Shown here piece after piece: positions 6,236 to 64,000 of a stretch of DNA of 64,000 nucleotides (its first letter is position 1; each line of letters begins with the position of its first letter). Location of the stretch: positions 18,470,858-18,534,857 of the forward strand of contig OX387190.1 in the NCBI GenBank assembly GCA_947561395.2, in the 5' to 3' direction. The DNA comes from Buxus sempervirens. Lineage: Eukaryota; Streptophyta; Magnoliopsida; Buxales; Buxaceae. The notes below the pieces were generated by a model. The model was given only the letters and a program-made list of their open reading frames with translations, ran no database searches and had not been told where the DNA came from. A program made the position numbers and the translations under genes.

Positions 6236-6317
6236 AGTGGGATGTTATTAATAATTGCAATTATTAAAATTCTTTTAGTTAGATAAGTATTGGAGAAGTC
6301 TGAATGCCTAAAGATGG

Positions 6318-18556: not shown

Positions 18557-18585
18557 GACTAACAGAGTCAAGGATCTGGTTACCC

Positions 18586-18597
18586 GCTCTGATACCA
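18586..18597 (-). other. Primer-binding site (tRNA-iMet)
   Basis: Minus strand reads TGGTATCAGAGC, the standard plant copia site complementary to the 3' end of initiator tRNA-Met, two bases after the CA of the 5' LTR at 18600. Confidence 0.95.
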
Positions 18598-18599
18598 AT

Positions 18600-19750
18600 T
18601 GAAAAACACAGTTTAGACTCTAAATCACCTAGAGGGGGGTGAATAAGTGAAACCGATTGCGGAATAAAATTTCTATCAATTAAAAACAAGTTCTTAATTA
18701 ATAGGCATGCACAAGTCTGAGCACTTAACAATCCATCACACAAAATTGCAAAATAAAGAAAGGACCACACAAGCAATTTTGGTGACGAAGGGAAAACTCT
18801 AAGAGAACTCTCAAAGAGAAAAACCCTCCGGGCGATAAGGTGCCACCTCTGAAAATCACTATAAGAAGAAGACTTACAATAGTGGTTCAGACGACCCAAA
18901 CTGACTCTGACTCACAATGTAAATATCTGAAGAACTCTTCAGATTTGCATCCTTGCAACGATCCAGAACTCTGAATATCTTCTTAGTGAAGCGCCAAACG
19001 AACTCGCTCAGCAACCGTAGGAACTCCCACGAGCAAACTCTCCAACCCGGAACTCCAAGGTAGAAAAGAAAGATTAAGAAAGGTTTTGATGGCTCAAAGA
19101 AGAAGAAGGAAGAGGAAGAAGATCTCTTGCTCTCACACACGTTTTTAGGGTTCTCTAAAACGTCTTCGGTAACCCTCACAATAACCTAGACACTACTTAA
19201 ATAGATTGGGAGAAGGTAAAAGAAGAAAAGGAAACAAATCAGAAAAGATTGGACTTCTAAAACTGAAGTTTGTTAATGAACGTTCGAACGCTCAGCGAAC
19301 GCGGCTCGAACGTTCAAGACAAAAAACTCACTTTTCTTCTTCTCGTTCGAATGGTCAGAAAACGAGAGGCGAACGCTGCTCTCGGGTTTCTCTGTTGAAC
19401 TCTATCGGTCGAACGGTCAGCTAACGTTCAGCGAACGCTGCTCTCTGGTTTCTCTGAGTGTCACCAACGGTCGAACGGTCAGCAAACGTTCAGCCCACGC
19501 TGCTCTCGGGTTTCTCTGTGTGTCACCAACGGTCGAACGTTCAGCGAACGTTCAGCCCACGCTGCTATCGGGTTTTTCTGTGTATCACCAACGGTCAAAC
19601 GGTCGGCGAACGTTGGTCGTAACTTTATCAATTTTACTCTAATCATAACCCCGCTTGAACCGCAATACCTATAACCTATCCCAAATACTTTGACCATATT
19701 TATAAGACCTTTTTGACACGGAATAAAGCCAAAACAAAATAATCCTTACA
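18600..19750 (-). repeat. 5' LTR of the copia element (right copy)
   Basis: 1151 bp, same ends and length as the left LTR. It contains the ~62-bp tandem repeats at about 19370-19610. It abuts the PBS on the inside and the target duplication GATGG (19751-19755) on the outside. Confidence 0.93.
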
Positions 19751-39441: not shown

Positions 39442-42409
39442 GGATGAAAACTCAAAACCAACAAAACAACCCTATTCTTATGCATGGGTATTAACCATAT
39501 TAAAACCCTATTTAAATAAGACATGATCAAATGCTTACAACTCTAACTTAACTCATGCACATGACCAATCAAAAGCCTCCCTTATTTTAAATCCTTCAAT
39601 TAATGAAATCCTTGATCCCATGAAACTCAAGGTACAATATTAGAATGCTTAACCAATTAGATTTAAACAAAACTTTAACATTAAACTTACTGCAAGCACC
39701 CAAATTTTGATCAAACCAAAATGTGCTAAAAACAGCAAAACCTCAAAATAGATTTGAACCCTAAGGAGCAAGAAATGTCTTTTTTTTCTGATCCCTATAC
39801 CCTATGCCAATGGGTAGGAAATCTCGATACGGTTCCAACGCAACTGAGTTTGTGTGAATCGGAGTCCGGATAAAGTAGTTATGGTCAAAACACTCTCAAG
39901 GGCAAAACTGTAATTAAATGTAAAACTGGCAACGTGACAAATGTGCAAACCACGTTTGCCAAGTGGAAAATTAAAGGACAAAACACAAAAGAAAATAAAA
40001 TATCATGAGATTTCTCTCAGTAATGAGAGATCATGGATGATATTTTTCTCATTAATGAGAAATCTCTTATTAATGAGAGAATCAAATGGAGATTTCTCTC
40101 ATGAAATCCCTCTACCCTAACCTCACTTATAGATAGGTCCCCCTCTCCCTAGACCTCTCTCAAGACTCTCCAAGACCACCCCTCTCCCCTAACCTCTCTC
40201 AAGACACTCCAAGGCTCCACCCTCACTCCACACTCTCTAAGTCTCGACCTCCCACTTCACACTCCAACACACATACCTCCCACTTCACTCTCCAAGGCTC
40301 CACCCCCCACTACACTCTCCAAGACCCCTAACCCCTTCCAAACCTCTTCAAAAACCTACCAATCTCCACCAACCTTCTTCTTCTTCCTCTTGAACCAAGA
40401 AGGAAACCCAAGAACCCTTAGACCTTGAAAAGGAGGAGCTCAACTGCTGTCCACACTTCAAGAAGACTCAAAGCAACCCTCAAGAAGGCTCTCATCCCCA
40501 AGGTGAGCTTTCTTTTTGTATTTTATTCAATATATATGAAGATCTATGCTATTTGAGCTTGTTAAGAGTAAATGCTCGTGTTTAACACATGTTATACCCT
40601 TTCTTCGTCTTCCCTCTCCCCCTTTTGCCTTTATTTTGTTTGTGAGAGGAGATCCCTAGGGTAAGGGGAGAAGATGAGGCAAAATGGGAGGTATTGAGAG
40701 ATCCTATAATGGTAAAACCACATAAGAGACTCATGTTAATGCACTTTCATGTTTCTTTCATTTAATAAGGGGAGAGCATGTTCTCCTTCCCATCTCCATC
40801 TAATGTACCCTATAAACCCCCACCTTCCCTTCTTTACTAGCTTTCGTAGTCCTCTTTAACTCTCTTTTAATATTGTTATATATGTTGTTTCTTGAGGTTG
40901 ATTTGTATGGTGTTACCATTTCTAGCATGCACACATGAAGCATATCACCACACACATGGGAGAGTCACCAAGCACATGTTCACTTCTTGATTCCAAGCAC
41001 ACTTTTATGATTCTTATACACCTTGTGAAGCACATACTTCATTGTTTTTGCTTATATATGATAGTAATGCTGATTTCTTTGTTTTAAGTAATGGATTTAA
41101 GTGTATTATGTGAGCATGCAACTTGGTGTGGCCAATTCGGACTTTGGGGAAGGACCTTTTAGGTCCCTCATTTCCACCTCCTCATGGAGGGAATGAGCAT
41201 TTCCTAGGCACCTTGGGAGACGTGCTTATGGCCTCTCCCAATCACATGAGATTCAACTCATGGATGGAGGAACAAGGCCCTTAGCCTTGCTCCCCATTTC
41301 CTTTGGCTTAAAACCAAACCAATAGCTTAATTAGGTTCACCATCCTAGTCTTAGACTACTGTGGGACTACTTAGGGGCCCACAATAATCTTGGTCTTCCT
41401 CAAAGACCATTGGATCCATTCCCTGTTCACAAAATGCAAAACTATAATTTTCTGTGCTTGACTGAAAACTCAGTTCGATCAAGCATATAACCAGTCATAG
41501 CCGAAATTGGATTTCGGTTATGCTTATTTTTTAGCATGACCGAAATTCAATTTCGGTCATGAATGGTTACTGGGTTGACCGACCTGTTTTTTTTGGTCAA
41601 ACCCAAAGAAAACCCAAAAGATGCAATTTCTGAATCCTTTATGGCTTTAACCCCTTTTAATCAAACCAATTAAAACCAATAGGGTTTTGGGCTCTACCTT
41701 AACCCAATTTGGGGCTTGGGCCCAAATTTGATACCGATGGGCCTTCCAATGGGGTCCACGCATCAGACTCAGGTCACTTGAGCTAAAAAGATAGAATCAA
41801 AATAAAGGGACCTACAACACACATGTGGTCCCACCAAGACTTAATCAAATGAGCATGTTGGCATAGGATGGGTGAGATAAAGGTGAGTTGACTCAATTAA
41901 AGATTAACCATGGATGACCCATGGGACCCGTCTCTTGATGGGACAGACCAGGGTGTCTACGAACTTCCCCGAATCCTAACCGGACACTTTCTCAGAATCT
42001 CGATGCGCAGACCACCCAGTAGACAGTCTTTTATCCAGGTGTCTGTTTGCACCCCATTAGGTAGTGGCGACTCCCCAAACTCCTTTTATCCAAATTTGAC
42101 ATCCCGATCCCAGAAGCGTATGATCCTTCACACTTTCGCCGGAGAGCGCGTTGGGTATTTCCCAAAGGGAGGTGATCACATCACCGTCCCCCACGTGCGC
42201 CGCGGATTGACGTGTGCACACTTACCTTAGTCTTTTCTTTGATCTTGACCTTCCAAACTCTCCAAAGATTTCCGGAATCAAGTCTCACCCTCTCTTTCAC
42301 CTAAAAATCACAGTTTAACCTCAAATTAATTCCATATATTTATTAAAATTAAATATATAAAGGGGCAAGAGCTTACAATTTCCCCCCAGTTGGTTTTACT
42401 AATAGTATA

Positions 42410-44276: not shown

Positions 44277-44794
44277 GATGTTCTCATGTAACTATCTTAT
44301 ATATGGTTAAGGTTTATACGAATAAGTACGCACGTATTGTACCGCACGAGCTACCCCTAGGCACATTCTTTAATTTTGGTTATGATGATGTCTTTGTTAC
44401 CCTGCCTGCTTGGTCCAATATGGTTACATAGTCTGATACCTTGTTTCTAGGGGTGTTCATAGGCGTGCTGCTAGTCTGGCCAGGAATGACCAGCTAGTTC
44501 TTGGATGTGCTTTGTCATCCATTGCTTGTTTGTACAACGACTACAATCGGACCGGGAAAGACTTTTAAAATCCTAATAAATTCTTAGATAGGCTTGGTCA
44601 AGTATGGAAATTCTCAGATAGGCCCGAGTCGCCCGACCAATATTTATATAAAATATTATAAATAAAATTTGTAAATATAATCTTTTGTTTATAATATGTA
44701 CTTATAAAGTACTTGAATTTTGATTTTAAACCTTAATAAGTGTGTGTTTTAATGTTCTTTCCTATTTTAAAACATTATTTATAGATAAATATAA
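44277..44794. other. Unassigned DNA before the DUF247 array
   Basis: AT-rich; a GGGGTGTTCATAGG segment near 44453 may be the edge of a decayed hAT-type MITE. No gene. Confidence 0.3.
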
Positions 44795-47535
44795 AACAGA
44801 GCCAAGTAAAGTCCATGTCTTTTCTTCGAAATCCAGTAAGGCTTGTTTACCTCGATGATAAGGACCTATTGACCTTAGGCAAACAAGCCTTCTGATTAAT
44901 GTTGACAAGGTTATTGGGAAGCTTAAAGATGCATGCCGAGCTCCTTATGGATGGTGTCAATTCTCGTCGCCAATCCTGTAATCGTTGCTGAAACATCATT
45001 GCATGATACTCCAGTTCTGAGAGTCTGATTTTTATCCCGTGGCAGCTCTCTAAAATTTCTTCTCATATTTTGAAATCCGGACCAATTAGAGTCCTTGTCA
45101 TGGTACTTGGGAATATTTTTCTAACTTCTCTGTGTTGAGTCTCCGCAATGAGGGGGAGGGAGGGAAGAGAGGTTATTTGCTAGTGAAATGGCGGGCAATG
45201 TTTTATATCCTATCCCGTAATTGTCGCTGCAACATCATTGCATGATAATCAAGTTCTGAGAGTCTAATTTTCATCACGTGGCTGTTCTTTGAAATTTCTT
45301 TTGTCAAATTTTGAAATTTGGATTGATTGGATGCATTTGTCACAGTACTTGGGAGATTTGAACTTCTCTATGTTGAGTCTCGACAATGAGTGGGAGGGGA
45401 GAGAAGTTATTTGCTAGTGAAGACGATGGGAAATGTTGTATCAACGTACATTTCCCTTGTAGCCTCTTCTAGTGGATGAATGTCGCTAAGGTATCTTCTC
45501 AAAGTCTAGTTCACGTCAGTATTGTCTACTCTAGTTACAAGTAAGGTCCATTTCTTTTCTTCGAAATCTAGTAAGGCTCGTTTACCTCGATGATAAGGAC
45601 CTATTGACACAATTTGAGACAAGTAAGCCTTCTCATTAATGTCAACAAGGTTACCAGGAAGCCTAAAGACACATGTCGAGCTCCTTCTGCATGGTGTAAA
45701 TTTTCGTTGCCTATCTCACAATCATCGCTGTAACATCATTGCATAATACTCAAGTTCTGAGAGTATGATTTTCATCTCGTAGCTACTTTCTGAAATTTCT
45801 TCTGTTATATTTTGAAATCTAGATTGATGGGATGCATTGTCACAGTACTTGGGAAATTTTTGCTAACTTATTTGTGTTGAGTCTCGACAATGAGGGAGAG
45901 GGAGGGAAGAGAGGTTATTTGCTAGTGAAGATGGTGGAAAATGTTGTATCAACAGAGCCAAGTAAAGTCCATGTCTTTTCTTCGAAATCCAGTAAGGCTT
46001 GTTTACCTCGATGATAAGGACCTATTGACCTTAGGCAAACAAGCCTTCTGATTAATGTTGACAAGGTTATTGGGAAGCTTAAAGATGCATGCCGAGCTCC
46101 TTATGGACGGTGTCAATTCTCGTCGCCAATCCTGTAATCGTTGCTGAAACATCATTGCATGATACTCCAGTTCTGAGAGTCTGATTTTTATCCCGTGGCA
46201 GCTCTCTAAAATTTCTTCTCATATTTTGAAATCCGGACAAATTAGAGTCCTTGTCATGGTACTTGGGAATATTTTTCTAACTTCTCTGTGTTGAGTCTCC
46301 GCAATGAGGGGGAGGGAGGGAAGAGAGGTTATTTGCTAGTGAAGATGGTGGAAAATGTTGTATCAACATAAATTTCTCTTGCAGTTTCTTCTAGTGGATT
46401 AATGTCACTCAAGTATCTTCTCAAAGTTTTGTTCATGTCGGTATTGTCTACTTTAGTTACAATGGAGCCAAACAAGGCTATCTTCAAAATCCAGTAAGGC
46501 TTGTTTACCTCTATGATAAGGACCTATCGAGATAATCTCAGGCAAACAAGCCTTTCGATTAATGTCGACAAGGTTATTGGGAAGCCAAAGAAGCATGTCG
46601 AGTTCCTTTTAGATGGTGTCAATTCTCGTCACCCGTCCTGCAATCGTCACTGCAACATCATTGCATCTTATTCAAGTTTTGAGAGTTTGATTTTCATCCT
46701 GTGGTTGCTCTTTGAAATTTATTCTGTTATGTTTTGAAATCCTGATTGATTGGATGCCATGTCACAAGACTTGGGAAATTTTTGCTAACTTCTATATGTT
46801 GAGTCTCAACAATGAGGGGAAGGGAGGGAAGAGAGGTATTTGCTTCCTATCACTGCAACATCTATCATTGCATGGTACTTAAGTTCTGAGTCTGATTATC
46901 ATCATGTGGCTTCTCTCTGAAATTTCTTCTCTCATATTTTGAAATCTGGACCGATTGGACACCTTGTCATAGTATTTGGGAAATTTGAACTTCTATGTGA
47001 TGAGTCTCGACAATGATGGGGAGGGAGGGGATAGAAGTTATTTACTAGTGAAAATGATGTGAAATGTTATATCAATGTAAATTTCCCTTGCAGTTTCTTC
47101 TAGTGGATAGATGTCGTTCAGGCATTTTCTCAAAGTCTTGTTCACGTTGGTATTGTTTGCTCTAGTTACAATAGAGCCAAGTAAGGTCCATTTCTTTTCT
47201 TTGAAATCCAGTAAGGCTTGTTTACCTCGACGATAAGGACATATATCAACATAATCTTAGGCAAACAAGTTGATTAATGTCGACAATGTTACTGGGAAGC
47301 CTAAAGATGCATGTTGAGCTCCTTGTGGATGGTGTCAATTCTTGCCGCCTATCCTGCAATCATTGCCCTTTGAAATTTCTTCTATCATATTTTGAAATCC
47401 GGATCAATTGGATGCCTTGTCACAGTACTTGGGAAATTTTCTCTAAGTTCTCAGTGTTGAGTCTCAACAATGAGGGGGAGGGAGCGGAGAGAGGTTATTT
47501 GCTAGAGAAGATGGCAAGAAATGTTATATCAATGT
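44795..47535 (-). pseudogene. DUF247 fragment array, segment 1 (about five copies)
   Basis: Head-to-tail copies of a unit that, on the minus strand, encodes pieces of the N-terminal part of a plant DUF247 protein (typical CIFRLP, then N-KACLPKIVSIGPYHQGKQ, then KKW, then NPLEE-ARE). Conserved anchors (AGTAAGGCTTGTTTACC on the plus strand) lie near 44836, 45571, 45991, 46494 and 47209. Every copy carries stops or frameshifts and none continues into the rest of DUF247, so these are fragments and not genes. Copies at 44795-45190 and 45950-46345 are almost identical. The segment ends where LTR copy C is inserted. Confidence 0.75.
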
Positions 47536-50049
47536 TATAGACACCCCAAATTGCACAGTAAAAATGATCAATAATCAGCAAAAATAATTGCTTCCTTTGA
47601 ATCCAGCACAAAAATGTGAAAAAAAGCAAGTTTTCCTTGTATCCGACAACTCAGGTCGGATACAAGTGCATCTGTTCGTATCCGATGGAACATGCCGGAT
47701 ACAAGTAGCCCTTAATGTATTCGGCAACATATGCCGGATACACATAAGCGCTAGTGTATCCGACCTGACATGCCGGATACACTAGTTTTGCTCAAAATTA
47801 GGGTTTTCCGAGAGCTTTCACCTTTTACCATCATATCCCTCATTAAATGAGTGGAAATCTCGGAAATAGCCTTAGGGTTAAGGTTGGTGGGCTCTAGACA
47901 TTATTTTGTGTCTAGCATCATGCAAACCCTAACCCTAGCCATTGCCTATAAATAGGAGGCTCCTCCTTAAGCAAATGACCATTAACTCTCTTGCCAACAA
48001 TTCTTGCTAAGAACTTTTGCCAAGAAAAGCTCCGAGAGAAGAGGAAAACCGCTGCGGAAGTGCTTCCAGAACCCAGGTAAGCCTCAAACCTCTTTTTAAT
48101 TTCTGTTTTTTTCATTTCTAGATCTAGATCTCTTCTTCTACCTTTCTGTAGAATAAGGCCTTGATGTGTGTATGAAAACCCTTCCCCGGCTCAAAGTATC
48201 TCAAGACTCCCCCTAGCCGTAAAACGTGAAGGTGGGATCTAGGAGAAACGAGACTGAGGATTGATCCTAGTGCTAGAACCTCTTTGAATAAGCCTTTTGA
48301 ATCTTTGTAAACCGTTCCATATTCAAAGTACCCCAAGATTATCTTGAAGAACCGTGTTTAACGGGGAGAGAGAACTAAGGGAAACGATAATGGAACGGAA
48401 CCCTAGGTTGTTCTAGAACCCTTTTTTTTATTGATCTAAATGCATGCTATGAGCCTTCTGATTCTTTGAAAACCCTTCCGTATTCAAAGTACCCCAACAT
48501 TATCTTGAAGAACCGTGTTTAACGGGGAGAGAGAACTAAGGGAAACAATAATGGAACGGAACCCTAGATTGTTTTAGAACCTTATTTTGATTAATATGAA
48601 TGTATATTATCTTTGCTACGTTGTTCGAATGGTTTTTTACACTTACACATACATAGCACATGATTTTGGGTGGGATAGGCTCATATTTTGGATTTATTGC
48701 GTTTATTGTGATAAATCTGAAATAAATAGCCTCAATCAATTTTGGAATGTTTTCAAATGATTTTTAAAGGATTTTGATTAATCTTGCACGGATCACACAT
48801 ACTTCATCACTATTTGGTGTTGGTTTTTTTCAAAAAGGGCTTAACTTGATAGCAACTGTACCACAACTTCGGACACTTATAACTTCACCGTCCGGATGAA
48901 TTTTGCAGTTATTTTAGAACCATGGGAAAGGTGAGGCTGTCTAGTTTATGCCTACCAAATTTCATCAATTTCTATCAAGCAGATTTTTGACACCTCTCTG
49001 TCAAAGTTGATAGGTCATTTCAGATCTGAATACGGAACCTGTCACTTCGACTGAGCGCCATGTGTTTGTTTTAAATCCGATTCGAGTGATTTTTGTTTCT
49101 GGGCACTCCTTTATGAGTCTATTTTCAAATCCAGTTGGTTTCATAATTTTTTAACTCCATCTGTGTCGTGAGTAACAGATTTACTCAGAGCTGTTCAACA
49201 GCACTTTTCTGGGTAAATCTGTGATCTTCGGGGCCTGTTCGGGAGACCACCCAAGGCACATCCGAATGAATTTTTGTATGAGACTAGTTTCATTTAAAAG
49301 GTGGCCATACAAACTTCACTCACACCAAATTTCATGAATTTATATTGAGCAGAATTTTCTAGATAATTTTCCAAACTTGCCCACTTGTCACTTTTAATCA
49401 TCTCCAGCAGCTACTTTAAAGGAGCATAACTCCTAGGTTTTCAACCGGATCAACTTGAAATTTTGCATGAGACTCTGATTTACCATAATCTTTCAAATAG
49501 ATTTGGTTTGATTCAATTTAAAATTGGACTTGAATGATTTTAAGACAAATGGCATTATCTTTTACCGAATTTCTCGGATTTCACTCAACTTGGTTTTTTT
49601 TGCAATCTTTGCTTTGATTTCTATTTATTGTTGATATTTCAAAAGTGATATTGACATAAAAGAGGATCTGGAATCCATTTGGATTTCTCATGTGAAGATA
49701 TCACACATTGGCTTAATTCTTTTCCAATGTTTTTAATGATTTTTTAGCAAGCTTTCTTATCCTTTTTGCATGTACAAACACTTGGCAACCACCTTGTGTG
49801 GGTGAATGGGGGTGCCTAACAGCTTCCCCCGTTCATAATCTAATCCCCTTACCCATCTCTGGATTTGATTTTCAAGTAGGGTTATTTTTACTCTAGAATT
49901 TGGTTTTTAACCCTTTTTGCATATTTTGATGATTTTGGTGTCCATTCACACCCCAAAAATCTGAATGGTGGCGACTCTCTCACTTTTTGCGTTGAGCCCG
50001 TGTGCTGACGGAGGGGGAATCATCCCGGTGATTTTTCCCATGTCTCACA
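47536..50049 (+). mobile_element. Tat-like solo LTR, copy C (2514 bp), inside the DUF247 array
   Basis: Begins TATAGACACCCC (first TG decayed to TA) and ends CATGTCTCACA, flanked by AATGT (47531-47535 and 50050-50054). Other array units give the uninterrupted sequence, confirming the insertion. TATAAATA at 47947-47954 and splice donor CAG|GTAAG at 48077. About 110 bp around 48300-48410 is repeated at 48460-48570. Confidence 0.85.
47639..47780. repeat. Four tandem 8-9-8 dyads in LTR copy C
   Basis: First unit 47639-47663, last 47756-47780. Spacers are 9 nt. The first unit has GTATCCGA paired with TCGGATAC, a two-sided change that keeps the stem; the others have one mismatch each. Confidence 0.88.
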
Positions 50050-51183
50050 AATGTACATTTCCCTTGGAGTCTCTTCTAGTGGATTAATGTCACTCATGTA
50101 TCTTCTTAAAGTTCTGTTCATGTCGGTATTGTTTGCTCTAGTTATAACGAAGTCAAGCAAGGTTCATTTCTTTTCTTCAAAATCCAGTAAAGCTTGTTTA
50201 CTTGGATGATAAGGACTTATCGACACAATCTCAAGAAAACAAGCCTTCCAATTAATGTCGACAAGGTTATTGGGAAGCCTAAAGATACATGCCCAGCTCC
50301 ATGTAGATTGTGTTAATTCTTGTTGCCTATCTCGCAATCATCGCTGCAACATCATTGCATGATAATCAAGTTTTGAGAGTCTAATTTTCATCACGTGGTT
50401 GTTCCTTGAAATTTCTTTTGTCAAATTTTGAAATCCGGATCGATTGGATGCCTTGTCACAATACTTGGGAGATTTGAACTTCTTTATGTTGAATCTTGAC
50501 AATGAGTGGGAGGGGAGAGAAGTTATTTTCTAGTGAAGACGATGGGAAATGTTTTATCAACGTACATTTCCCTTGCAGTCTCTTCTAGTGGCTTAATGTC
50601 TCTTAGGTATCTTCCCAAAGTCTCGTTCACGTCGGTATTGTCTGCCTAGTTAAAACAGAGCCAATTAAGGTCCATTTATTTTCTTTGAAATCGAGTAAGG
50701 CTTGTTTACCTTGATGATGAGGACCTATCGGCACAATCTTAGGCAAACAAGCTTTCTGATTAAGGTTGACAAGGTTACTGGAAAGTCTAAAGATGCATGT
50801 TGAGCTCCTTGTTGATGGTGTCACTTCTCATCACCTATCCCGCAAATGTCACCGCTGCATCATTTCATGATACTCAAGTTTTGAAAGTCAAATTTTCATC
50901 CGTGGCTGCTCTATGAAATTTATTCTTACATATTTTGAAATCGGATCGATTGGATGCCTTGTTTTCCCTTACAGTCTCTTCTAGTAGATTAATGTCACTC
51001 AGATAGATTCTCAAGGTTCCATTCATATCGGTTATTTTCTGCTCTAGTTACAACAGAGCCAAGTAAGGTCCATTTCTTTTTTTTGAAATCCAATAAGGCT
51101 TGTTTGCCTTGATGATAAGGACCAATCAAGACAATCTCAGGCAAACAGGCCTTCTGATTAATTTCGACAAGGTTACTGGGAAG
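50050..51183 (-). pseudogene. DUF247 fragment array, segment 2 (about three copies)
   Basis: Anchors near 50186, 50695 and 51092. The minus-strand frames 50627-50824 and 50995-51186 read DUF247-like CIFRLPSNLVNLNQKACLPK, then IGPHHQGKQALLDF, then KWTL. The last copy is cut by the 6.2-kb insertion at 51184. Confidence 0.75.
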
Positions 51184-51564
51184 CATGGTTTACTAGGTTG
51201 GCTGGTACCGGGATTAGCTAGTCCCGATTTGGTATTCCGGTATAAGACTAGTCGATTGGAACGGCCGTCTCAAACTTGGGCTGTCCCAAGTTGGATCGCC
51301 TGAGTTAAGCATGACAGCAGCGTAAAAGTTGTTGTCAAGCTCGAGACACCATTTTTGATGTCTTGGGCTCTAAGATTTGATTCTGCCCTTGTTTTCTTAA
51401 AAGAAAACCATGAGAGAGAGAGAGAGAGAGATAATAGTGAGGAAGATCCTCCTTTGTGCCAATCAACAAGGCAAATAGCATCATCGACTCTCAAGATTCG
51501 ACTCCCTGGAGATTTTCTAAGGAGTCCGATGATGCCATTTGCCTTGTTAAATGGATATGTTGAG

Positions 51565-52052
51565 TAGGGGTGCAACTCGGTTCGGTTTGGTCCGGGTTGA
51601 TGTCAACCCAAGACCAAACCGAAAATATATATAGTTAAACCGAACCGAATTGAAAACCGAATCGAAAATATATAAAAAAACCGAAACTGAAACCGAACCG
51701 AACCAAACTGAACCGAATTACATGAAAACTATTCGGTTCGGGTTAGACCAATATATTCTTATCTCAAACAAAAGGTTTTTTTTGTAATATCCTTAAAGTT
51801 TAGCATATATTATATTATATATATATAAAACATAGATTATATATTATAATATATATATGAATTCGGTTCGGTTCGGTTCGGTTTAAGGAAATACATGAAT
51901 TTGGTTTGGTTTAACTGAACATGAAACCCAAAACCGAACCGACCTAGTTCGGTTTAGGGATTTTTGGATCAAACCGAACCACTATAAAACCGAACCAAAC
52001 CGAACCGAAGTCGGTTCGGGTTCGGTTTTAACCGGACCAAGTTGCACCCCTA
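51565..52052. mobile_element. hAT-type foldback MITE (488 bp)
   Basis: TIRs TAGGGGTGCAAC...GTTGCACCCCTA with flanking 8-bp duplication ATGTTGAG (51557-51564 and 52053-52060). The interior is GGTTCGGTT / AACCGAACC repeats, able to fold on itself, around an AT-rich centre. Confidence 0.9.
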
Positions 52053-52284
52053 ATGTTGAGATCATCAAGAAGCCAAGTAGCACAGAATCCTTCAAAATAG
52101 AGGGCAAATGCAAGATTGGTCGGAGACTCGAAGAGGAAGGTGTGAGATTAGTTGAATTCTTGGAGAGGAAGGTGCAAGATCAAAACACAGGTGGGTTTGG
52201 ATTCTAATGTTTGGAAAGGACTTATTTAGGAGAGAACATTGAGGAGGACTTGAGTCATGTCCTCATTTATTACCTGATAACATG

Positions 52285-52411
<127 letters not shown>

Positions 52412-52478
52412 AGGACTGATTGCTTCTGCAAGTCTCTTGACTGTTCTCCTCTTTGTTTAGCTTCTTTGGCTAGTATCT

Positions 52479-55464
52479 TGTAACGCCTTGGATCTGAGTT
52501 ACGTAGTGAAACCGTAACTCATCTCCGAAGGTTAATATATCACATAGGATCGCAATATCATAGTGAAGGAAAAACATGAATAAAACAATAACTACATAAT
52601 CAGAGTGCACTATAAACCCAAGCTCAAATATAAAATACCATATCTCAAGCTTAACTCACATGAACCAAGCATTTACCCCTATAGTATCGTCCTCTCCAAG
52701 ATCTGAAAACAAAACAAAACGTGATGAGATACGAATATCTCAGCAAGTAGCACATGCATGCAATAAAACATTTATAACAGTTCTAAAATATGATTCAATG
52801 GTAAAACATGCATCCGTAACGATAACCAACAATTACGAGTAATCCAAGTAATCCAATTACAACCATGTATCATGAATAAGGAAAATACCATAACCATCAT
52901 ATAATAAAAATCCATAGCGTGCAATCAACAGAAATAAGTCCCAGGTGGACTCATGAAATAAGATTGCCTTTAACTAGGGTAATGCCAATGTCCACTATGC
53001 CACCTCTCGGCTTATGTGTGAAGCCGAGTACACGATCATCGTCTTATTGCGGAGGAACGCACCTAGTACAGTGATGGGTTGGCATGTACTAATCCAGTCA
53101 TAGTCCGAATACACGATAAAATGAGGGACATCCGCAGCCCTCCAAGTACTCGATAAGGCCTCACTGAGTACACAGTGGAAACGCTTGCGTGAACAAAGTA
53201 TTACGACTAGCAAAGAACAATCTATTCCACTATCTAGCTCTTAACATGACAAATGTGGATCCACACCGAGCTATGCCATCTAGACTCAAGCTAAAGCCAA
53301 TCTGAAAACTCGGTAATCTCAGCTCATTTTAATCTCATACATATCATCCCGAGTACACGGGTCATCTCTGAGTACACAGAGGAATCAACATCCCAAGTAC
53401 ATGGGGCATCCCTGAGTACACGAAGGTAGATATCCATCAACTCATCAAAACAATAAAACCATCCTCCAAGTACATGGAGAGATCTGAATAATCACCTTAA
53501 ACCAAAATAGTTTGTTTAAAAGCCTTTTTCAATAATATTGCATAAAAGTCCCTTTATAGTTCCGAATTTGGTAAAAGTGTCAATCTCGGCTAAACCGGCA
53601 AATCCAAATATTAAAACCAGAGTTAAATACTGTTATTAAATCCAAAACACTAGAATTTTCCTATGAGTATTACCCTTAGTTCACTCCCTTTAAAATAAAC
53701 TATTAATGTTCACTACTAAAACTTCTAATTCTCTTAAGTGAAACCCATAATTTCCACCTCTTAGTTATCTTAACTTTTGCAATTGATCTGTAATATTTCT
53801 CCAAACAATTTCCAATATGATCTGAACATAAAGAAAGACAATTATATAATCTTTGCTTTAGAATTTCAATGCATTAAAATCACACATATCATATCTAAAA
53901 TTATTCCCCAATTCTCACTAGGTTAAATCTCTTCATTTAAATTCCTATTTTAGATTCCCATTACTCACTCCAATTTCCCCTAATCCTCTCTAATTAATCC
54001 CAGATATAACCTGCACCTTAACTGAAATTACTATAATTTATACTTGCACAATTTCATTTCTCTAAGAATTCATAATCCTTACCTAATACAAGTTCCCAAT
54101 TCCTTTAATTGAAACCTCAAGTATAATCCCAATTCAACATCTCTTTACTCTTCCAAGGCCCCTAGTTTACCGCTAATTAAATCCCCCAAAGTAGATTTTA
54201 ACAGAAATTTAAAATGAGCTAAAAATAGGCTGGGCGCCAACCTCTGGGAAGGTAGGCGCCCCTGAGCCTGCCTGGGTGCTCATACCAGTTTCAAAATTTG
54301 AGATGCGGCGGATGAGATTTGCCTAGGATTGACCTACTGTTTTGCTTCCAAACCTTTTCCATCACATTCCTAATAGTCTAAATGATGATTTTGCGTTCAT
54401 TTGGATTTAATTGAATCACAAAACAAAACCACCTAACCTTAGCCGCCCATGCTATTCCTCAAACAGAATTTTGATACCAACAAACGTAATTTCAAATTCT
54501 ATATGAACTGATATGATTTTTCTTCACCATTTCATTTCCAGCAAATCACTAATCATCTAAACAATCCATTATCATGCAGTTGAACTTAATTGCATCATAT
54601 TTTCATGCTACTCAAGTCTATGCGCCATTATCTCACAAAAACAGAGTGCGGCAAATTAATTGTTCAAGACTATACCAGAATTTAGTTTAAATCATCCAAA
54701 TTGAAAACAAGTTGTGCTACTCACATATTAGAAGCAAATCCAAGCTAATAAACTCCTCAATTCCTCAAACGAATTTCTGAAATACTGCCTCCAGAACTGA
54801 TCGCACGAACAGTTACTGTTGAAATTCAATTTCTGATCAGATATCTACAGATCTGTATTCCTCTTGATAAATTCAACTAATTATAACCTAATTAATCAAA
54901 CTTACCTGAATTTCGGATTGAAATAGCTGAGATTGCAGCTCTTGAACAAATCTGAGTGTTGCCGCAAGATCTCTTCACTCCAAATTTAAACAATTAATTC
55001 TCAACGACCACCTTAGATCTTCTCTGATCACCACAAAATCCTTAATATTTTGATTTGACTCCTCAAACCCTAATTCTCCTCTTCTTCTTCTTTGGCGATC
55101 TCCCTCTCTAGATCGAGCAATGAGCCAGCTGAACTAACGAACTAAATGCTACCTTTATATATAGTTGCTGCCAAGCTTTGTTTAAAACCTTGATCCTATA
55201 CTTGCCACTCCAACAAGATTTCCTACATAAGCACCATTTGATATGGTCTGATCGCATGATCGCCACACTACTGATCCATCAAAAACCAGCCAATAGAATT
55301 TTTAATGTTTACCTCTTAACTTTACTAACACACCTCCCATTGAAACTCTCGAAATCTCTAGCTTAACTCTTTATTTACCTTTCCTGAAATTTTCCATTGA
55401 TTAAAAATCAATTAATAACATAAAAACCCAATTTTTAATGTTATTAAAAATTTGGGATTTTACA
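52479..55464 (-). mobile_element. Solo LTR, TGTAA...CGTTACA type (2986 bp)
   Basis: Plus strand starts TGTAACGCCTTGG and ends GGGATTTTACA, flanked by TATCT (52474-52478 and 55465-55469). On the minus strand a TATATATAAAGG box (about 55155) precedes a leader and a donor CAG|GTAAG at 54905, so I orient it minus. GAGTACAC motifs recur at 53025-53425. No internal coding region. Confidence 0.82.
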
Positions 55465-55469
55465 TATCT

Positions 55470-56024
55470 CCCTTTTTGAATGGCTATTTCAAGGTCACAG
55501 TCGTGTACAACTTAGTGGTCGACCTGCAGTTGTTGTTTCCCCTTGTTTTGTTCTCAAGGTGTAGCGAGTGTCGTCTATTTGCTTTGATAGTGCTTGGTCT
55601 CATGTTTAATAATGCCTCCTCCACCCTTCACCCGCATTTCTTTTTTCGAAGGTTTGTATTGGTGTTATAATAATTGCCTTCCTTCCGTTGTCTCTCTATC
55701 ATGGTAGACTATTTCCCTCATATGGGACTTTCAATCCGCCTTAATGCAGACCCTTTCTCAGGCATCACTGATGGGTTTCCATTGGTATCTGTGGTCTTGG
55801 CCACCCGCTTGGAATTTATGTGCAAAACTCTTATGATATGTGCAGGAGGAAGAGTTGTTGTTTCTGAGAGGAATCGTGTAGCTTGTTTCATTGCATCTTT
55901 TTTGTTTATGTTTGTTCAGCTTTACCTAACCTGGCTTTTTTGGCCTTGGATGATGTAAGTTTGCTCTGTTTTAATGAAATTGCATAGGCTTGGCCATTAC
56001 CAAAAAAAGAGAAGGGGAGAGCGA
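55470..56024 (+). other. Interior of the hAT-like insertion, no recognised gene
   Basis: Frames of 72 and 94 codons (55452-55670, 55674-55958) have no recognisable domain. They may be transduplicated exon material or chance. Confidence 0.3.
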
Positions 56025-56860
56025 TAGAGGTGCAAGTAGGGCGGGTTTGGTCGGGTTATGACAGTTTGGGCTCAATTCAATCTAAGATTTACTAGTCCAA
56101 ACTTGTCATCGACCTGCCCTAACCCAAACTCACTAACCCAAACCCAACCTAAACATTATTATTTGAGTCCGGGTTGGCTCAAACAAAATGTAAGATTTTG
56201 AATTTTTTTTCAATTTTTGTTATAATTGTAAAATGTTAGGATATCATTAATTAAATCTTCTATCAACATACTTTTATGTTTGTTATAAATACAAATGTTA
56301 TAAATGCCTCCTGATTTGAACCTTGAATTTGGGAAGAAAGACATTTAATTAATTTATTTATTTAAAACAATTTTCAAAATATAATACTAGTTCACTATAT
56401 TTGTGGTTTTGGACAATTTTTCTTGTAGAGTATGTGCTCCCAAATATCACATTCATTATAGCATATATGTATATGTATGTGAGTATAAAATTATTTATTT
56501 GAGAATAAATTCATAAACTTATTATCACATGCTAATAAATTTATGTTTAATTGTTGATTGCATAATTACAATGACAATATAAAAGGAAAAAAAAACCAAT
56601 GGTACATATACATACAAATAAATACTCACTTATATCTATATATATATATTTGTTGGAGTTTTATGCATATATTTATATAAGAGTGTGTACATAAAGTTAA
56701 CATTAACTTTGGGCTTTTTGGGTAGTATAACTTGAACCTGAGCCCAACCCAAATTCGACTTTGGGCTAGAAATGAAAACGAAACCAAACTCAATGCTCCG
56801 TTCGAGCTCTTATTTGGATTGGGTGGGCTTTGAGCTGTTTGGGCAAGATTTACAGTTCTA
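56025..56860. mobile_element. Probable hAT-type MITE (836 bp)
   Basis: Ends TAGAGGTGCAAG and, inward from the right, TAGAACTGTAAATC. Flanks GAGAGCGA and GAAAGGGA agree at 6 of 8 bases. Subterminal GGGTTTGG / CCCAAACC blocks lie at both sides. Confidence 0.5.
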
Positions 56861-56904
56861 GAAAGGGAGGGAGGAAAAGATGGTCCCATTGATTGTTGTG
56901 TAAT

Positions 56905-57334
56905 GAAATGTCTTCATCAAACTTTTTTTTGTCTTTTTGGTGTAATAAATGTCTTCATCAAACTTTTTTTCCTCTTCAATAGACTTTTTTTCTTTGATGA
57001 AAAGACACAATAAAGGTCCTCCTCAGACTTTTTTTCCTCTTCAATAAATGTCTTCATTAGACTTTTTTTCTTTGATGAAAAGACACAATAAATGTCCTCA
57101 TCAAACTTTTTTTTTGGTGTAATGAGAGGGAGGGAAAAAATCTGCACTCTGATGCAGATTTTTATATTTTTATGAGGAGATCAGATTGGACTAGCTGATC
57201 CCAGTCGGTACCATTCAGTACCGATCTGGACAGAAAAAAATCTGCACTCTAATGCAGATTTTTATATTTTTATAAAGAGACCGGATTGGACTAGTTGATC
57301 CCAGTCGGTACCATTCGGTACTGGTCTGGATAGA
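56905..57334. repeat. Two tandem repeat blocks
   Basis: Units of AATGTCTTCATCA-AACTTTTTTT repeat irregularly at 56905-57115. Two 100-bp units start near 57135 and 57235, each with TCTGCACTCT-ATGCAGA (a small dyad) and GGTACCATTC. Confidence 0.8.
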
Positions 57335-57400
57335 ACAATCTAGTTTGTATTGGGACTTGCCCGACCCGGTCTGGTACTTGGTCTCGGTACAAAAAGCATG

Positions 57401-59593
57401 TTGGGAAGCCTAAAGATGCATGCCGAGCTCCTTGTGGATAGTGTCAATTCTCATTGTCTATCCCTCAATTGTCACTAGAACATCATTGCATGATACTTAG
57501 AGTCTATTTTCATCCCATGGCTGCTCTCTGAAATTTGTTCTGTCATATTTTGAAATCCGGTTCGATTGGATGCCTTGTCACAACACTTGGGAAATTTCCA
57601 CAAACTTTTCTTTGTTGAAACGCGACAATGATGGGGTAGGAGGAGAGAGAGGTTATTTGCTAGTGAAGATAGGGGAAATGTTGTGTCTCCTGTCCCACAA
57701 TCGTTGCTGCAACATTATTGCATGATAGTCAAGTTCTGAGAGTCTGATTTTCATCCTGTGACTGTTCTTTGAAATTTCTTCTGTCATATTTTGAAATCTG
57801 GATCAATTGGAGGTCTTGTAACAGTACTTGGGAAATTTGAACTTCTTTGTATTTAGTCTCGACAATGAGGAAGAGGGAAGGGAGAGAGGTTATTTGCTAG
57901 TGAAGATGGTAGGAAATGTTTTATCAACGTATATTTCCCTTGCAGTCTCTTCTAGTGGATTAATGTCTCTCTAGTATCTTCTCAAAGTCTTGTTCATGTC
58001 AGAATTGTTTGCTCTAGTTACAGAGCCAAGTAAAGGTCAATTTCTTTTCTTTGAAATCCAGTGAGGCTTATTTACTTCGATGATAAGGACCTATTAACAC
58101 AATCTAAGACAAACAAGCCTTATGATTAATGTCAACAAGGTTATTGGGAAACCTAAAGATGCATGCCGATCTCCTTGTGGATGGTGTCAATTCTCGTCTG
58201 CTATCCCGCAATCGTTGTCGTAGCATCATTGCATGACACTCAAGTTCTGAGAGTATGATTTTCATCCCATGACTGCTCTTTAAAATTTCTTTTGTCATAT
58301 TTTGAAATCCGGATCGATTGGATGCCTTATTATAGTGCTTGGGAAATTTGAACTTCTTTGTGTTTAGTCTCGACAATGAGGAAGAGGGAGGGGAAAGAGG
58401 TTATTTGCTAGTGAAGATGGCAGGAAATGTTTTATCAATGTATATTTCCCTTGCAGTCTCTTCTAGTGGATTAATGTCGTTCAGATAGCTTCTAAAAGCC
58501 TCGTTCACATTGGTATTGCCTGCTCTAGTTACAACGGAGCCAAGTAAGGTCCATTTCTTTTCTTCGAAATTTAGTAAGGCTTGTTTACCTTGATGATAAG
58601 GATTTATCGACACAATCTTAGGCAAACAAGCCTTTTGATTAGTGTGGACAAGGTTATTGGGAAGCCTAAAGATGCATGCCAAGGTCCTTGTGGATGGTGT
58701 CAATTCTCGTCGCCTATCCGCAGTCATCGCTACAACACCATTGCATGATACTCAAGTTCTGAGAGTCTGATTTTCATTCCATGGCTGCTATTTGAAATTT
58801 CTTCCATCATATTTTGACATCCAGTGGATTGGATGCCTTCTTAGAGTATTTGAGAAGTTTTCGCTAACTTCTCTGCGTTGAGTCTAGACAGTGAGGGGAA
58901 GGGAGGGGAGAGGGGTTATTTCCTAGTGAGACAGTGGAAAATATTTTATCAACATAGATTCCCTTGCAGTCTCTTCTAGTGGATTAATGTCGCTCAGGTA
59001 TCTTCTCAAAGTTCTATTTACGTCGGTATTTTCTGCTCTAGTTACAACGGAGCCAAGTAAGATCCATTTCTTTTCTTCTAAATCAAGTAAGGCTTTTTTA
59101 CCTCGATCGATAAGGAAACTGGGAAGTCTAAAAATGCATACCGAGCTCCTTGTGGATGGTGTCAATTCTCGTCGCCTATCCTGCAACCGTCACTGCAACA
59201 TCATTGCATGATACTCAAGTTCTAAGAGTTTGATCGATTTTCATTTCATGGTTGCTCTCTAAAATTTCTTTTGACGTATTTTCAAATCTAGATCGATTGG
59301 ATGCCTTGTCATAGTATTTGGGAAATTTTCGCTAACTTCTCTATTTTGAGTCTCGACAATGAGGGAGAGGGAGGGGAGAGATGTTATTCGCTAGTGAAGA
59401 CGGCAAGAAATGTTGTATCAACGTACATTTCCCTTGTCGTCTCTTCTAGTGAATTAATTTGACTCAGGTATCTTTTCAAAGTCCAGTTCACATCAGTATT
59501 GTTTGCTCTATTTACAACAGAGCGAAGTAAGGTCCATTTATTTTCTTCGAAATGTAGTAAGGCTTGTTTACCTCGATGATAAGGACCTATAGA
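57401..59593 (-). pseudogene. DUF247 fragment array, segment 3 (about four copies)
   Basis: Anchors near 58063, 58575, 59085 and 59561. The best frame, 58401-58727 (108 codons from ATG), reads ELTPSTRTLACIFRLPNNLV, KACLPKIVSINPYHQGKQ, KKWTLLGSVVTR, NPLEETARE. This covers roughly the first 75-80 residues of the DUF247 domain, then leaves the family and stops. Neighbouring frames at 58104-58376 and 58923-59186 carry the same blocks. The unit is about 0.5-0.7 kb. The segment ends at a MITE. Confidence 0.75.
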
Positions 59594-60154
59594 TAGGGCT
59601 GATCATTGGGTAGGCTTGGGCGGGTTCGGGCTTGGCCAGAGGTCCCACATAATTGATATGATCTTTTTCTAAGCCCACCCAGCTCGATGATCGAGCTTGT
59701 GACTTAATGACCAAGCCCGTTCAATAAGCACACTTAAATGCTGAAGCCCCCCCAACAATAGTCACTTAGACATCTAAGTTTATACTTTAAAAGAAGGAAT
59801 AAAACACTAATCTCTTGCTATGATAATTCAAAAAAAAATGTTGGAAATTTTTTTTACTTTGCCAACAAAAAGTATCACCGTTTTGAAATACTGAAGACTT
59901 GTGGAATAGATATGAGTAGTTTAGGGTTAGAAAGAATGTATTAATTAAATAGTAAAAAGTAAAAATCAATTAAAGAGTTAAACTTTGGGCTGGGTTGGGC
60001 CAGCTCGGCATTTCTTATTTTTGACCAAGCCCACCCAAATTTTTCCGTGCTTTTAAAAATCAATCCCAACCTGACCCTATGGTCAACCATTGCATGACCA
60101 AGCCCATCTAAAAACTGGTTGGTCACCTCAGCCGGGCGACCATGAACACCCTCA
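59594..60154. mobile_element. hAT-type MITE (561 bp) inside the array
   Basis: Ends TAGGGCTGATCATTGGG and, inward from the right, TGAGGGTGTTCATGG. Flanks are CCTATAGA (59586-59593) and CCTATCGA (60155-60162). The undisrupted array units read CCTATCGA here, confirming the target. The interior has GGGCTTGG / CCAAGCCC blocks. Confidence 0.7.
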
Positions 60155-60340
60155 CCTATCGATACTATCTGAGGTATACACCCTTACCTATCGATACTAT
60201 CTGAGGTATACAAGCCTTCTGATTAAAGTCAACAAGGTTCCTGGAAAGCCTAAAGATGAATGTCTAGCTCGTTGTGGATGATGTCAATGCTCATCACCTA
60301 TCCTGCAATCGCCGCCACAACATTATTGCATGATATTCAA
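60155..60340 (-). pseudogene. DUF247 fragment array, last piece
   Basis: Continuation of the unit broken by the MITE, preceded by a local ~30-bp duplication (TATCGATACTATCTGAGG repeated at 60157 and 60188). The array homology stops at about 60340 and the TERT-bearing units begin. Confidence 0.65.
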
Positions 60341-60705
60341 GTTAGACTGAGTTGACTCAAACCAGGAAGACTTGAGGGACCCGTCAACCGACGGCACGGA
60401 CCAGGGTGTCTTACGACTTCGTCGGACCGTAACTGAGACCTTATCTAGAATCTCAAGTCGCAGGACTTCCCCTTCAAGAGTTGTTATTTTAGTTGGAAAA
60501 TATATTTCTATATGGTTGATCATTAACTTCACCGATTGTTAGAATGCAAATATTTCACTATAAACTAAGTCTTTTCAATCGGCAATATAAAGAAATTCCT
60601 CTATTAAATTCAAGGTTTACACCAAAAAGATACAAAACGAAAAATGAAAAAATTGATGAAGATTAATACAGACGGAGAAGAAAAAGAATTGAGAAGAAGG
60701 TACAC

Positions 60706-60890
60706 CTCCAATTGTGAGTGATGACTAGTGTGGTAGAATGATGTGATCGGTGGAGCATTTTCGGATACAACTAGGAAGCACCGAATCAGAAGCTTGCAAT
60801 ATTTAGCAGGTTCCTTTGGTCTTAAAAGGAATGACATGGAATTTTCGCCGCTACAGCGGAGGCAACACCGCCCGTTACATTGGCATCCCG
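60706..60890 (-). pseudogene. TERT: TERT exon-1-like fragment, copy 1 (truncated)
   Basis: Minus strand reads the later half of the TERT-like exon: C-rich motif, then SMSFLLRPKEPAKYCKLLIR, then SENAPPITSF and SHHSQLE. The 5' half with the start codon is lost in the deletion that joins 60890 to U3/leader sequence. It ends at the same GAG|GTGTAC donor as the other copies. Confidence 0.75.
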
Positions 60891-61009
60891 CTGGAATGTA
60901 TTCTATTTTTTATTTTCTTCCTCAGCCTATTGGAGTCTCGGAAGGGCTATGGGGTCACCAGCCAAAAAAAACGACCAACAACAACCCCCAACAAGTGGGT
61001 AGATGTTGC

Positions 61010-61017
61010 TTTTTATA
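61010..61017 (-). promoter_or_regulatory. TATA box upstream of TERT fragment copy 1
   Basis: Minus strand GCCTATAAAAAGC, about 120 bp upstream of the truncated TERT fragment. The same site in unit 2 (about 62854-62861) is degraded to CCTGTAAAAG. Confidence 0.55.
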
Positions 61018-61874
61018 GGCAATTCAACACACATGTTTGGATATACACATTAGGCAAACACACACTCTGGCCCAGGAAGTCTTGGGCCTTCAAACCCAAA
61101 TCTAGGTTATGGGCCCCAAGCCCATGTCTAGACCCTTTGGAAGCAAACTAAATAAAATAAATCAAATTGTTTGGCTACCATTGTCAGGCCCCCCAAATGG
61201 GCCCACGAATCATCCCAGCTCACTTTGAATAAAACTTTACCTAACTTCCCACTTAAACTATAAATAAAAATTTATTAAAATCGCCAAGAACCAAAGGGCA
61301 TCTTAGGATTAGACCGAGGCTCACCAGGGGACATGTGGGCTAAGCTTAGCCCACCAAGGGATCCGTGGGCCTTCCAACGGGGTCCACCCAATCAGACCCA
61401 GATCACTAAACTAAGAATGATAAAATCAAATAAAAGGGAACCCGCACCACTTTGATGGCCCCCACCAGACCCAGTAAAGGTGGGCGTGTTTGGTTTAGGA
61501 ATAGGGTGAGCTAGACTGAGTTGACTCAAACCAGGAAGACCTGAGGGACCCATCTACCGACGTCGTGGACCAGGGTGTCCTAGGACTTCCCCGGACCGTA
61601 ACTGAGACCTTAGTTAGAGTCTCAAGCCGTAGGACTTCCCCTCTTGAGTTATTATTTTAGTTGGAAAAATATATTTCTATATGGTTGATCATTAACTTCA
61701 CCGATTGTCAGAATGCAAATATTTCAGTATAAACAAAGTCGTTTCATTCGGCAACATAAAGAAATTCCTCTATTAAATTCTAACTTTACACCAAAAACAT
61801 ACAAAACAAAAAATGAAAAAATCGATGAAGATTAATAAAGACGGAGAAGAAAAAGAATTGAAAAGAAGGTACAC

Positions 61875-62162
61875 CTCCAATTGTGAGTGATGACTAGCAT
61901 GATAGAATGATGTGATCGGTGGAGCATTTTCGGATACAACTAGGAAGCACAGAATCAGAAGCTTGCAATATTTAGCAGGGTCCTTTGGTCTTAAAAGGAA
62001 TGACATGGTATTTTTGCCGCGGCAGCCGAGGCAACGCCGCCTGTTACACCGGCATTCCGCCGCTGAAGGCGGCGGCCGAGGCAGCAATGATACTATTGTG
62101 TCCGCTAAAGTGCGAGCACGGCTCCAGTACAACCTCCACAGATCCTCCGGGACTTTCGTCAT
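61875..62162 (-). pseudogene. TERT: TERT exon-1-like fragment, copy 2 (complete, 96 codons)
   Basis: ATG at 62160-62162 and an open frame of 96 codons to a splice-donor-like GAG|GTGTACC at 61875/61874. The translation resembles the extreme N-terminus of plant telomerase reverse transcriptase block by block, as I recall that family: VPEDLWRLYWSRARTLADTI, then ECRCNRRRCLGC, then MSFLLRPKDPAKYCKLL, then SENAPP and SQLE. TERT is the catalytic subunit that extends telomeres; this covers only the start of the N-terminal domain and none of the RNA-binding or RT motifs. After the donor the frame runs into T-rich intron-like sequence and stops at 61773. It lies in an LTR-like tandem unit, so I take it as a captured exon and not the cellular TERT locus. 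The frame is intact, so it could still be transcribed and spliced. Confidence 0.8.
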
Positions 62163-62229
62163 TGCGATTGGCGGTCTTTTTCTCAGGTGTCGTTCAACAG
62201 AAGTCTTTGTGACTGGCGGCCTTTTTCTC

Positions 62230-62600
62230 AGGTGTGAAAGCTACGCAAGCTCCAAAGGGGTAGAAGCTTTTTTACGCCGTTCAGGTGAAGTTCCAGGGAG
62301 ATGCAAGATAGAAGCTTTTTTACGCCGTTCAAGAGAAGTTTCAGGGAGAGGAAGTTTCAGGGAGACGCAATATAGAAGCTTTTTTACGCATTTCAAGACG
62401 AAGTTTCAGGGAGACGTAAGACGAAGTTTCGGGGAGAGGAAGTTTCAGGGAGACGCAAGATAGAAGCTTTGTTACGCCGTTCAAGACGAAGTTTTAGGGA
62501 GACAAAGTTTCAGGGAGAATTCGAGACGAAGTTTGAATTTTCAGGGAGATGCCATTCAAGCGAAGTTTCAGGAGACGCCATTCAAGAGAAGTTTGAAGAG
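62230..62600. repeat. Short direct repeats upstream of TERT copy 2
   Basis: Irregular tandem repeats built from GAAGTTTCAGGGAGACGCAA, GATAGAAGCTTTTTTACGC and CGTTCAAGA, at least seven variants between 62230 and 62600. They lie on the promoter side of the TERT ATG (minus strand). Unit 1 has lost them by deletion. Confidence 0.85.
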
Positions 62601-63720
62601 AAGTCTTTGTGACGACTTGAAATCCTTTATGACGCAAGAGTGTTACGATCCTCTGACGCAGCTCTATCTGCTGAGATGCGTCCTATTTGAGTCTCAAACC
62701 CGATTTCAACTTTCCCCCTGGAATGTGTTCTATTTTTTATTTTCTTCCTCAGCCTATTTGAGTCTCGGATAGAGTTGGAGGGAGAGGAAGGGCTATGGGG
62801 TCACCAGCCAAAAAAAACGACCAACAACAGCCCCCAACAAGTGGGTAGATGTTGCTTTTACAGGCAATTCAACACACATGTTTGGAAACACACATTAGGG
62901 CCACACACACTCTGGCCCAGGAAGTCTTGGGCCTTCAAACCCAAATCTAAACTATGGGCCCCAAGGCCATGTCTAGCCCCTTTGGAAGCAAACTAAATAA
63001 AATAAATCAAATTCTTTTGCTACCATTGTGAGGCCCACCCAATGGGCCCACGAATCATTCCATCTCACTTTGAATAAATCTTAACCTAACTTCCCACTTA
63101 AACTATAAATAAAAATTTATTAAAATCACAAAGACCCAAAGGGCCTCCAAGGATTAGACCGAGGCTCACCAGGGGACATGTGGGCTAAGCTTAGCCCACC
63201 AAGGGATCCGTGGGCCTTCCAACGACGTCCACCCAATCAGATCCAAATCACTTAACTAAGAAAGATAAAATCAAATGAAAGGGAACCCGCACCATTTTGA
63301 TGGCCCCCACCAGACCCAATAAAGGTGAGCGTGTTTGGCTTAGGAATAGGGTGAGTTAGACTGAGTTGACTCAAACCAAGAAGACCTGAGGGAGCCGTCA
63401 ACCGACGGCGCGGACCAGGGTGTCTTAGGACTTCCCCGGACCGTAACTGAGACCTTATCTAGAATCTCAAGCCGCAGGAGTTCCCCTTCTGGAGTTGTTA
63501 TTTTAGTGGGACAAATATATTTCTATATTGTCGATCAATAACTCCACCGATTCTCAGAATGCAAATATTTCACTATAAACTAAGTCTTTTCATTCGTCAA
63601 CATAAAGAAATTCCTCTATTAAATTCTAACTTTACATCAAAAACATACAAAACGAAAAATGAAAAAATCGATGAAGATTAATACAGACGAAGAAGAAATA
63701 GAATTGAGAAGAAGGTACAC

Positions 63721-64000
63721 CTCCAATTGTGAGTGATGACTAGCGTGGTAGAATGATGTGATCGGTGGAGCATTTTCGGATACAATTAGAAAGCACCGAA
63801 TCAGAAGCTTGCAATATTTAGCAAGGTCCTTTGGTCTTAAAAAGAATGACATGGCATTTTCGCCGCTGCAGCCGAGGCAACGCCGCCTGTTGCACCGGCA
63901 TTCCTCCGTTGAAGGCGACGGCGGAGGCAGCAACGATACTGTTGTGTCCGCTAAAGTGCGAGCACGGCTGCAGTACAACCTCCACAGATCCTCCGGGACT
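63721..64000 (-). pseudogene. TERT: TERT exon-1-like fragment, copy 3 (runs off the window)
   Basis: Same exon as copy 2 from the donor at 63721 up to the VPEDLWRLY region; the ATG would lie just beyond 64000. By hand it differs from copy 2 at about 18 nucleotides, which give about 13 amino-acid changes (for example CLGCSGENAMSFFLRPKD). That is the pattern of neutral drift. The frame stays open over the whole visible part. Confidence 0.78.

Follow-up and report, generated by a model that had tools for sequence, protein, structure and literature searches.

The last 3.66 kb of the 64,000-nucleotide stretch of Buxus DNA analyzed here (the window) form a tandem array on the minus strand, in which every unit contains sequence homologous to the N-terminus of plant TERT. 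The units are head-to-tail monomer copies with direct-repeat spacings of 1169 and 1845-1846 bp. We count at least three of them, one ending at the window end at position 64000, and the array may continue past this point. It abuts a second tandem array of ~510-bp monomers on the same strand, which derives from a DUF247 gene; the 5' ends of two unrelated host genes, TERT and DUF247, have thus been amplified as neighbors on a single strand. The TERT array is composed of the following features:

60340-60343, no strand: left edge of the TERT array, where AGTT is common to the DUF247 monomer and the LTR-like piece
60343-61511, minus strand: unit 1, 1169 bp, with a 658-bp deletion relative to unit 2
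61512-63356, minus strand: unit 2, 1845 bp, the sole complete unit
63357-64000, minus strand: unit 3, which ends at the window end
60703-60894, minus strand: what is left of TERT exon 1 in unit 1, matching AtTERT residues 39-101 (47% identity, tblastn E 6.0e-13)
61875-62162, minus strand: TERT exon 1 in unit 2, 96 codons from the ATG to SQLE (tblastn E 5.4e-21, match 62156-61872)
63721-63999, minus strand: TERT exon 1 in unit 3, 93 codons (tblastn E 3.9e-21, match 63999-63718)
61634-61874, minus strand: putative start of intron 1, 241 bp, beginning GTGTAC, with 28% GC and 43% T on the coding strand
62163-62712, minus strand: 550 bp that precede exon 1 in unit 2 and include a degenerate minisatellite (~62261-62601)
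63178-63477, plus strand: LTR-like piece spanning the junction of units 2 and 3, which recurs at the junction of units 1 and 2

BLAST alignments between units show 90.5-92.2% identity, and by segment the units differ from each other by 6-12%, which rules out an assembly duplicate as their source. The deletion in unit 1 corresponds to positions 62063-62720 of unit 2 and takes away ~34 of the 96 codons. Wherever the parts exist, the order of upstream sequence, exon and intron-like sequence is the same in the units. The open frame of unit 2 extends beyond SQLE to 61773, and the first three codons of the unit 3 exon lie past the window end.

A tblastn search of the whole window with a provisional reference for the Arabidopsis TERT N-terminus, checked over residues 135-180, returned three strong matches, one per unit (next best E 0.70). 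The original prediction of three consecutive TERT-bearing units on the minus strand is borne out by this search. In the PDB, residues 135-180 of this reference match chains of human TERT (E 7e-4), and the reference protein is therefore a TERT. BLASTP of the 96-codon frame of unit 2, which had been proposed to follow TERT, gives a significant match to the same reference (44 of 94 residues identical, 47%, Arabidopsis residues 8-100), and the similarity is collinear with the N-terminus, as expected for a plant TERT fragment. Smith-Waterman scores against Arabidopsis TERT are 207 for unit 2 and 205 for unit 3, whereas 2000 shuffles of each reach at most 61 and 66; chance similarity is rejected on these values. 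Two of the motifs that had been expected in every unit need correction for unit 1. VPE-LWRL is present in units 2 and 3 and is missing from unit 1, since the 658-bp deletion has removed its first ~34 codons, and CRC...CLGC fails in unit 1, where the corresponding motifs read CQC and CLRC.

Searches with the Buxus sequences against broader collections were negative. The 129-amino-acid frame of unit 2 matched 0 Pfam families, a PDB search with one TERT unit as query returned no TERT and a single match to a histone (E 0.29), and a profile built from two units together with the reference N-terminus reached no animal TERT there, its one match being a phage-defence protein (E 0.7). None of 36 candidates in a protein-database search with the TERT frame had an E value of 1 or less. 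Among possible relatives of the TERT unit, 0 of 11 stretches in viral contigs and 0 of 133 in prokaryote genome contigs were confirmed. A text search of the literature for peptides of the TERT reference found no paper that contains them, and Rfam and tRNA scans of the window returned 0 and 0 hits. A functional TERT gene is rejected for the scanned 9.3 kb of minus strand, from which the downstream RNA-binding and reverse transcriptase domains are absent: the three minus-strand frames of 51001-60342 contain DUF247 only and no TERT domain. The rest of the window was checked for TERT via a list of open reading frames of at least 90 amino acids.

The homology to TERT stops at SQ-E, the position at which we take the first intron of plant TERT to be located. 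The coding strand then reads GTGTACCTTC, beginning with GT, and the GC content falls from 51% in the exon to 28% in the adjoining 241-bp T-rich stretch. The donor-like site after SQ-E shows no strong consensus match when judged by eye. This stretch would represent the beginning of intron 1, donor site included, and the 550 bp on the other side of the exon are possibly TERT 5' flank. We infer the extent of TERT-derived DNA beyond exon 1 in this way. The end of the homology at SQ-E, directly before GT and a T-rich, intron-like stretch, indicates copying at the DNA level.

The exon sequences appear to evolve neutrally. Ka/Ks is 0.81 for units 2 and 3 (93 codons), 0.79 for units 1 and 2 (62 codons) and 0.83 for units 1 and 3 (62 codons); the test has low power, as each pair offers 15-18 changes. 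Of the 18 exon changes that separate units 2 and 3, 13 are nonsynonymous, with 68-72% expected under neutrality (one-sided p 0.59-0.73). Sixty-seven changes could be attributed to a single unit; C>T or G>A accounts for 31 of them, including 9 at CpG. There are 0 stop codons in the compared codons (93 for units 2 and 3, 62 for unit 1), which leaves room for weak constraint; the chance of finding no stop under neutrality is 0.34-0.47, assuming ~25 changes.

The piece shared by the unit junctions has a relative elsewhere in the window, and a block close to this relative recurs in three solo-LTR-like copies:

41707-42010, plus strand: dispersed relative of the LTR-like piece, with a CACCCC..GTGGCGACTC block 54 bp further on
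47536-50049: solo-LTR-like copy, flanked by the 5-bp repeat AATGT
37162-39441: solo-LTR-like copy, with 5-bp flanks GGACG/GGATG
8945-11713, minus strand: solo-LTR-like copy, flanked by the 5-bp repeat TCATC

Positions 63178-63477 match 41707-42010 with a score of 204 (maximum 48 in 100 randomised controls), and the core at 63211-63477 is 70% identical to 41738-42010. The three longer copies start with TGTAGACACC or TATAGACACC (T[G/A]TAGACACC), end with CATGTCTCACA and look like solo LTRs. All three contain the CACCCC..GTGGCGACTC block ~80 bp before their 3' end, and the piece in the TERT units is therefore probably an LTR fragment from near the LTR 3' end. It may belong to a Ty3/Tat-like family. 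TERT is antisense to the piece. The word TGGCGACTC at 42065 was considered as a primer-binding site and dropped, as the same block is found inside the solo-LTR-like copies at the distance given above; a literature text search for it together with 'primer binding site' and 'retrotransposon' found no paper. The primer site TGGTATCAGAGC has only one occurrence in the window, at a Copia element (minus strand, 18597), and none in the TERT units. Neither a complete LTR nor a target-site duplication was found for the TERT units in the window, which ends inside unit 3. The earlier description of the units as LTR-like thus applies to the ~300 bp at their junctions.

The neighboring DUF247 array occupies several blocks:

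57401-60343, minus strand: part of the DUF247 array that abuts the TERT array, interrupted between 59593 and 60189
44792-47535 and 50050-51184, minus strand: other parts of the DUF247 array, split by the solo-LTR-like insertion at 47536-50049

Monomers were matched at 44792-47535, 50050-51184, 57401-59593 and 60189-60343 (6227 bp net), and five full-length monomers have pairwise identities of 82-88%. They code on the minus strand for the N-terminal ~80 residues of DUF247 (PF03140), with E values of 5.4e-21 for a frame of 51001-60341, 5.7e-15 for a frame of 44792-47533 and 6.7e-14 for the open reading frame at 58401-58727. Divergence among the DUF247 monomers exceeds that among the TERT units, and the DUF247 array may for this reason be the older of the two; less homogenisation would be an alternative explanation.

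Two further insertions were seen within the DUF247 array. The one at ~59594-60150 is flanked by CCTATAGATA and CCTATCGATA and has the look of a small DNA transposon, hAT-like by eye; its right end is blurred by a 32-bp tandem duplication at 60146-60212. The other, at 51185-57400, is 6.2 kb long and contains an (AG)n run at 52287-52408; TGGGAAGC borders it on either side and may be a target-site duplication.

At the left edge, the TERT array starts mid-way in the LTR-like piece and not at an LTR end. The AGTT shared across this edge reads CAAGTT in the DUF247 monomer, GAGTT at the junction of units 2 and 3 and GAGCT at the junction of units 1 and 2. It could be the trace of end-joining or recombination, or the four shared letters may have arisen by chance. 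An edge in the middle of the piece is, as far as the sequence can tell, unlike the end of an inserted retroelement.

Taken together, we favor, with a probability of roughly two in three, a satellite-like amplification at the DNA level of a fused TERT/LTR segment, which is now decaying without function. The TERT 5' end, probably exon 1 with part of the DNA before it and ~240 bp of intron 1 after it, would have been fused to a piece of an LTR-type retrotransposon, and the fused ~1.85-kb segment would have been multiplied head to tail by DNA-level processes. These would be either unequal crossing-over or the excision of a circle and its rolling-circle copying, with joining by microhomology to the neighboring, more diverged DUF247 array of similar making. 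The units would now be decaying neutrally, with no functional protein and no selected role. The identity of the donor gene, the fusion, the route of amplification and the lack of function are inferred. DNA-level copying is favored because intron-like sequence is retained and because the edge lies mid-piece, and the array has the appearance of repeat DNA in decay and not of a working gene.

Clearly less probable is the scenario closest to the original prediction, in which a non-autonomous LTR retroelement took up TERT exon 1 in antisense and an LTR-TERT-LTR-TERT-LTR multimer arose via retrotransposition or LTR-LTR recombination. Plant LTR retroelements are known to capture genes (PMC13317346), and the layout of the array agrees with such an origin in that an LTR-like piece, oriented as its plus-strand relative at 41.7 kb, sits at each unit junction with TERT antisense in between. 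However, just ~300 bp are clearly LTR-like. Leftward extension of the match to the 41.7-kb relative scores 35, which is not above chance (control maximum 44), and rightward extension gives an ambiguous score of 36 (controls have a mean of 24.4, an S.D. of 4.0 and a maximum of 38, n = 100). The array moreover begins inside the LTR-like piece, no complete LTR was found in the window, and intron-like sequence has been kept although TERT is antisense. The claim that the unit is a retroelement with a captured exon is not upheld by these observations.

The preserved order of upstream, exon and intron-like sequence, together with a window that ends at 64000, would also fit an in-place tandem duplication of the first exon at the original TERT locus; the true gene would then begin close beyond the window end, and an LTR would have landed in the duplicated DNA. 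We regard this as unlikely: on the minus strand the downstream exons are expected at lower coordinates, yet 51001-60342 consists of the DUF247 array and its insertions and yielded no TERT domain in three minus-strand frames, and the exons could be outside the window only if the block had been displaced or inverted.

It is very improbable that the array is maintained as an antisense or small-RNA source regulating TERT, driven by plus-strand LTR promoter activity: maize elements with captured fragments are reported as siRNA reservoirs (PMC13317346, in the part available), and a TATA-like word, CTATAAATA, precedes the LTR-like piece on the plus strand at 61258 and 63103, but this word, weak by itself, is also found at three further sites in the window, there are no inverted repeats of at least 40 bp in 56000-64000 (only a 20-bp minus-strand self-match), and the substitutions look neutral. 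The CTATAAATA word is the only hint of transcription of the TERT units. Rather far-fetched, too, is the broader idea that a recurrent genome process makes adjacent same-strand tandem arrays from host-gene 5' ends, in this case TERT and DUF247, and that a large, transcribed TERT array, in which exon 1 with its splice-donor-like site is preceded by a retroelement piece on the opposite strand, dampens telomerase via antisense or small RNA.

Partial TERT copies have been described in other plants. The accessible part of PMC7916837 reports extra or truncated TERT copies in several species, among them TERT_D and TERT_12exD in N. sylvestris, fragments of intron 7 to exon 12 and of an exon 12 end that are associated with Ogre-SD1_I, a truncated TERT-like sequence of 208 N-terminal residues in Amborella, and, in Vigna radiata, exon 9 in two inverted copies. 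Like the Buxus units, these are truncated fragments, in one case Ogre-linked, and they exist there besides a full gene. In contrast, the copies in that part of the paper are single or paired and mostly involve other exons, whereas in Buxus exon 1 is present in at least three head-to-tail units with a common junction piece. The original prediction knew of no description of such an arrangement; TERT fragments as such are published in this source, and for a tandemly amplified TERT exon 1 we found no report among the open-licence papers listed.

A comparable tandem expansion of retroelement-associated sequence is seen in Lathyrus sativus, where according to the available text of PMC7004042 nine of 11 major satellites come from tandem repeats within LTR retrotransposons (Tat/Ogre). 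The monomers described there derive from 3' UTR repeats of the element itself, whereas the Buxus monomer is largely a host-gene fragment. The capture of gene fragments by plant transposable elements, including siRNA effects, is reviewed in PMC13317346. As in the cases covered by the available portion of this review, a host exon is joined to transposon-like DNA in Buxus; unlike them, the TERT units have no detected intact element ends or target-site duplication.

With TERT and DUF247 side by side, the locus offers a clear case of gene fragments turning into satellite-like DNA. If the arrays are large, they would provide a natural test of parent-gene silencing by repeated exon fragments. In this plant they can also mislead the annotation of TERT and counts of its copies.

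Two further features were seen elsewhere in the window. Positions 29318-31663 hold an open frame of 781 amino acids whose domains are FAR1, MULE transposase and SWIM, either a FAR1-related gene or a MULE transposase. The Copia-type retrotransposon with the TGGTATCAGAGC site at 18597 spans 13606-18598 (minus strand) and has split open frames, one of them with RVT_2; similar open reading frames and 62-bp repeats at 6279-7366 and 18522-19614 suggest the LTRs of this element.
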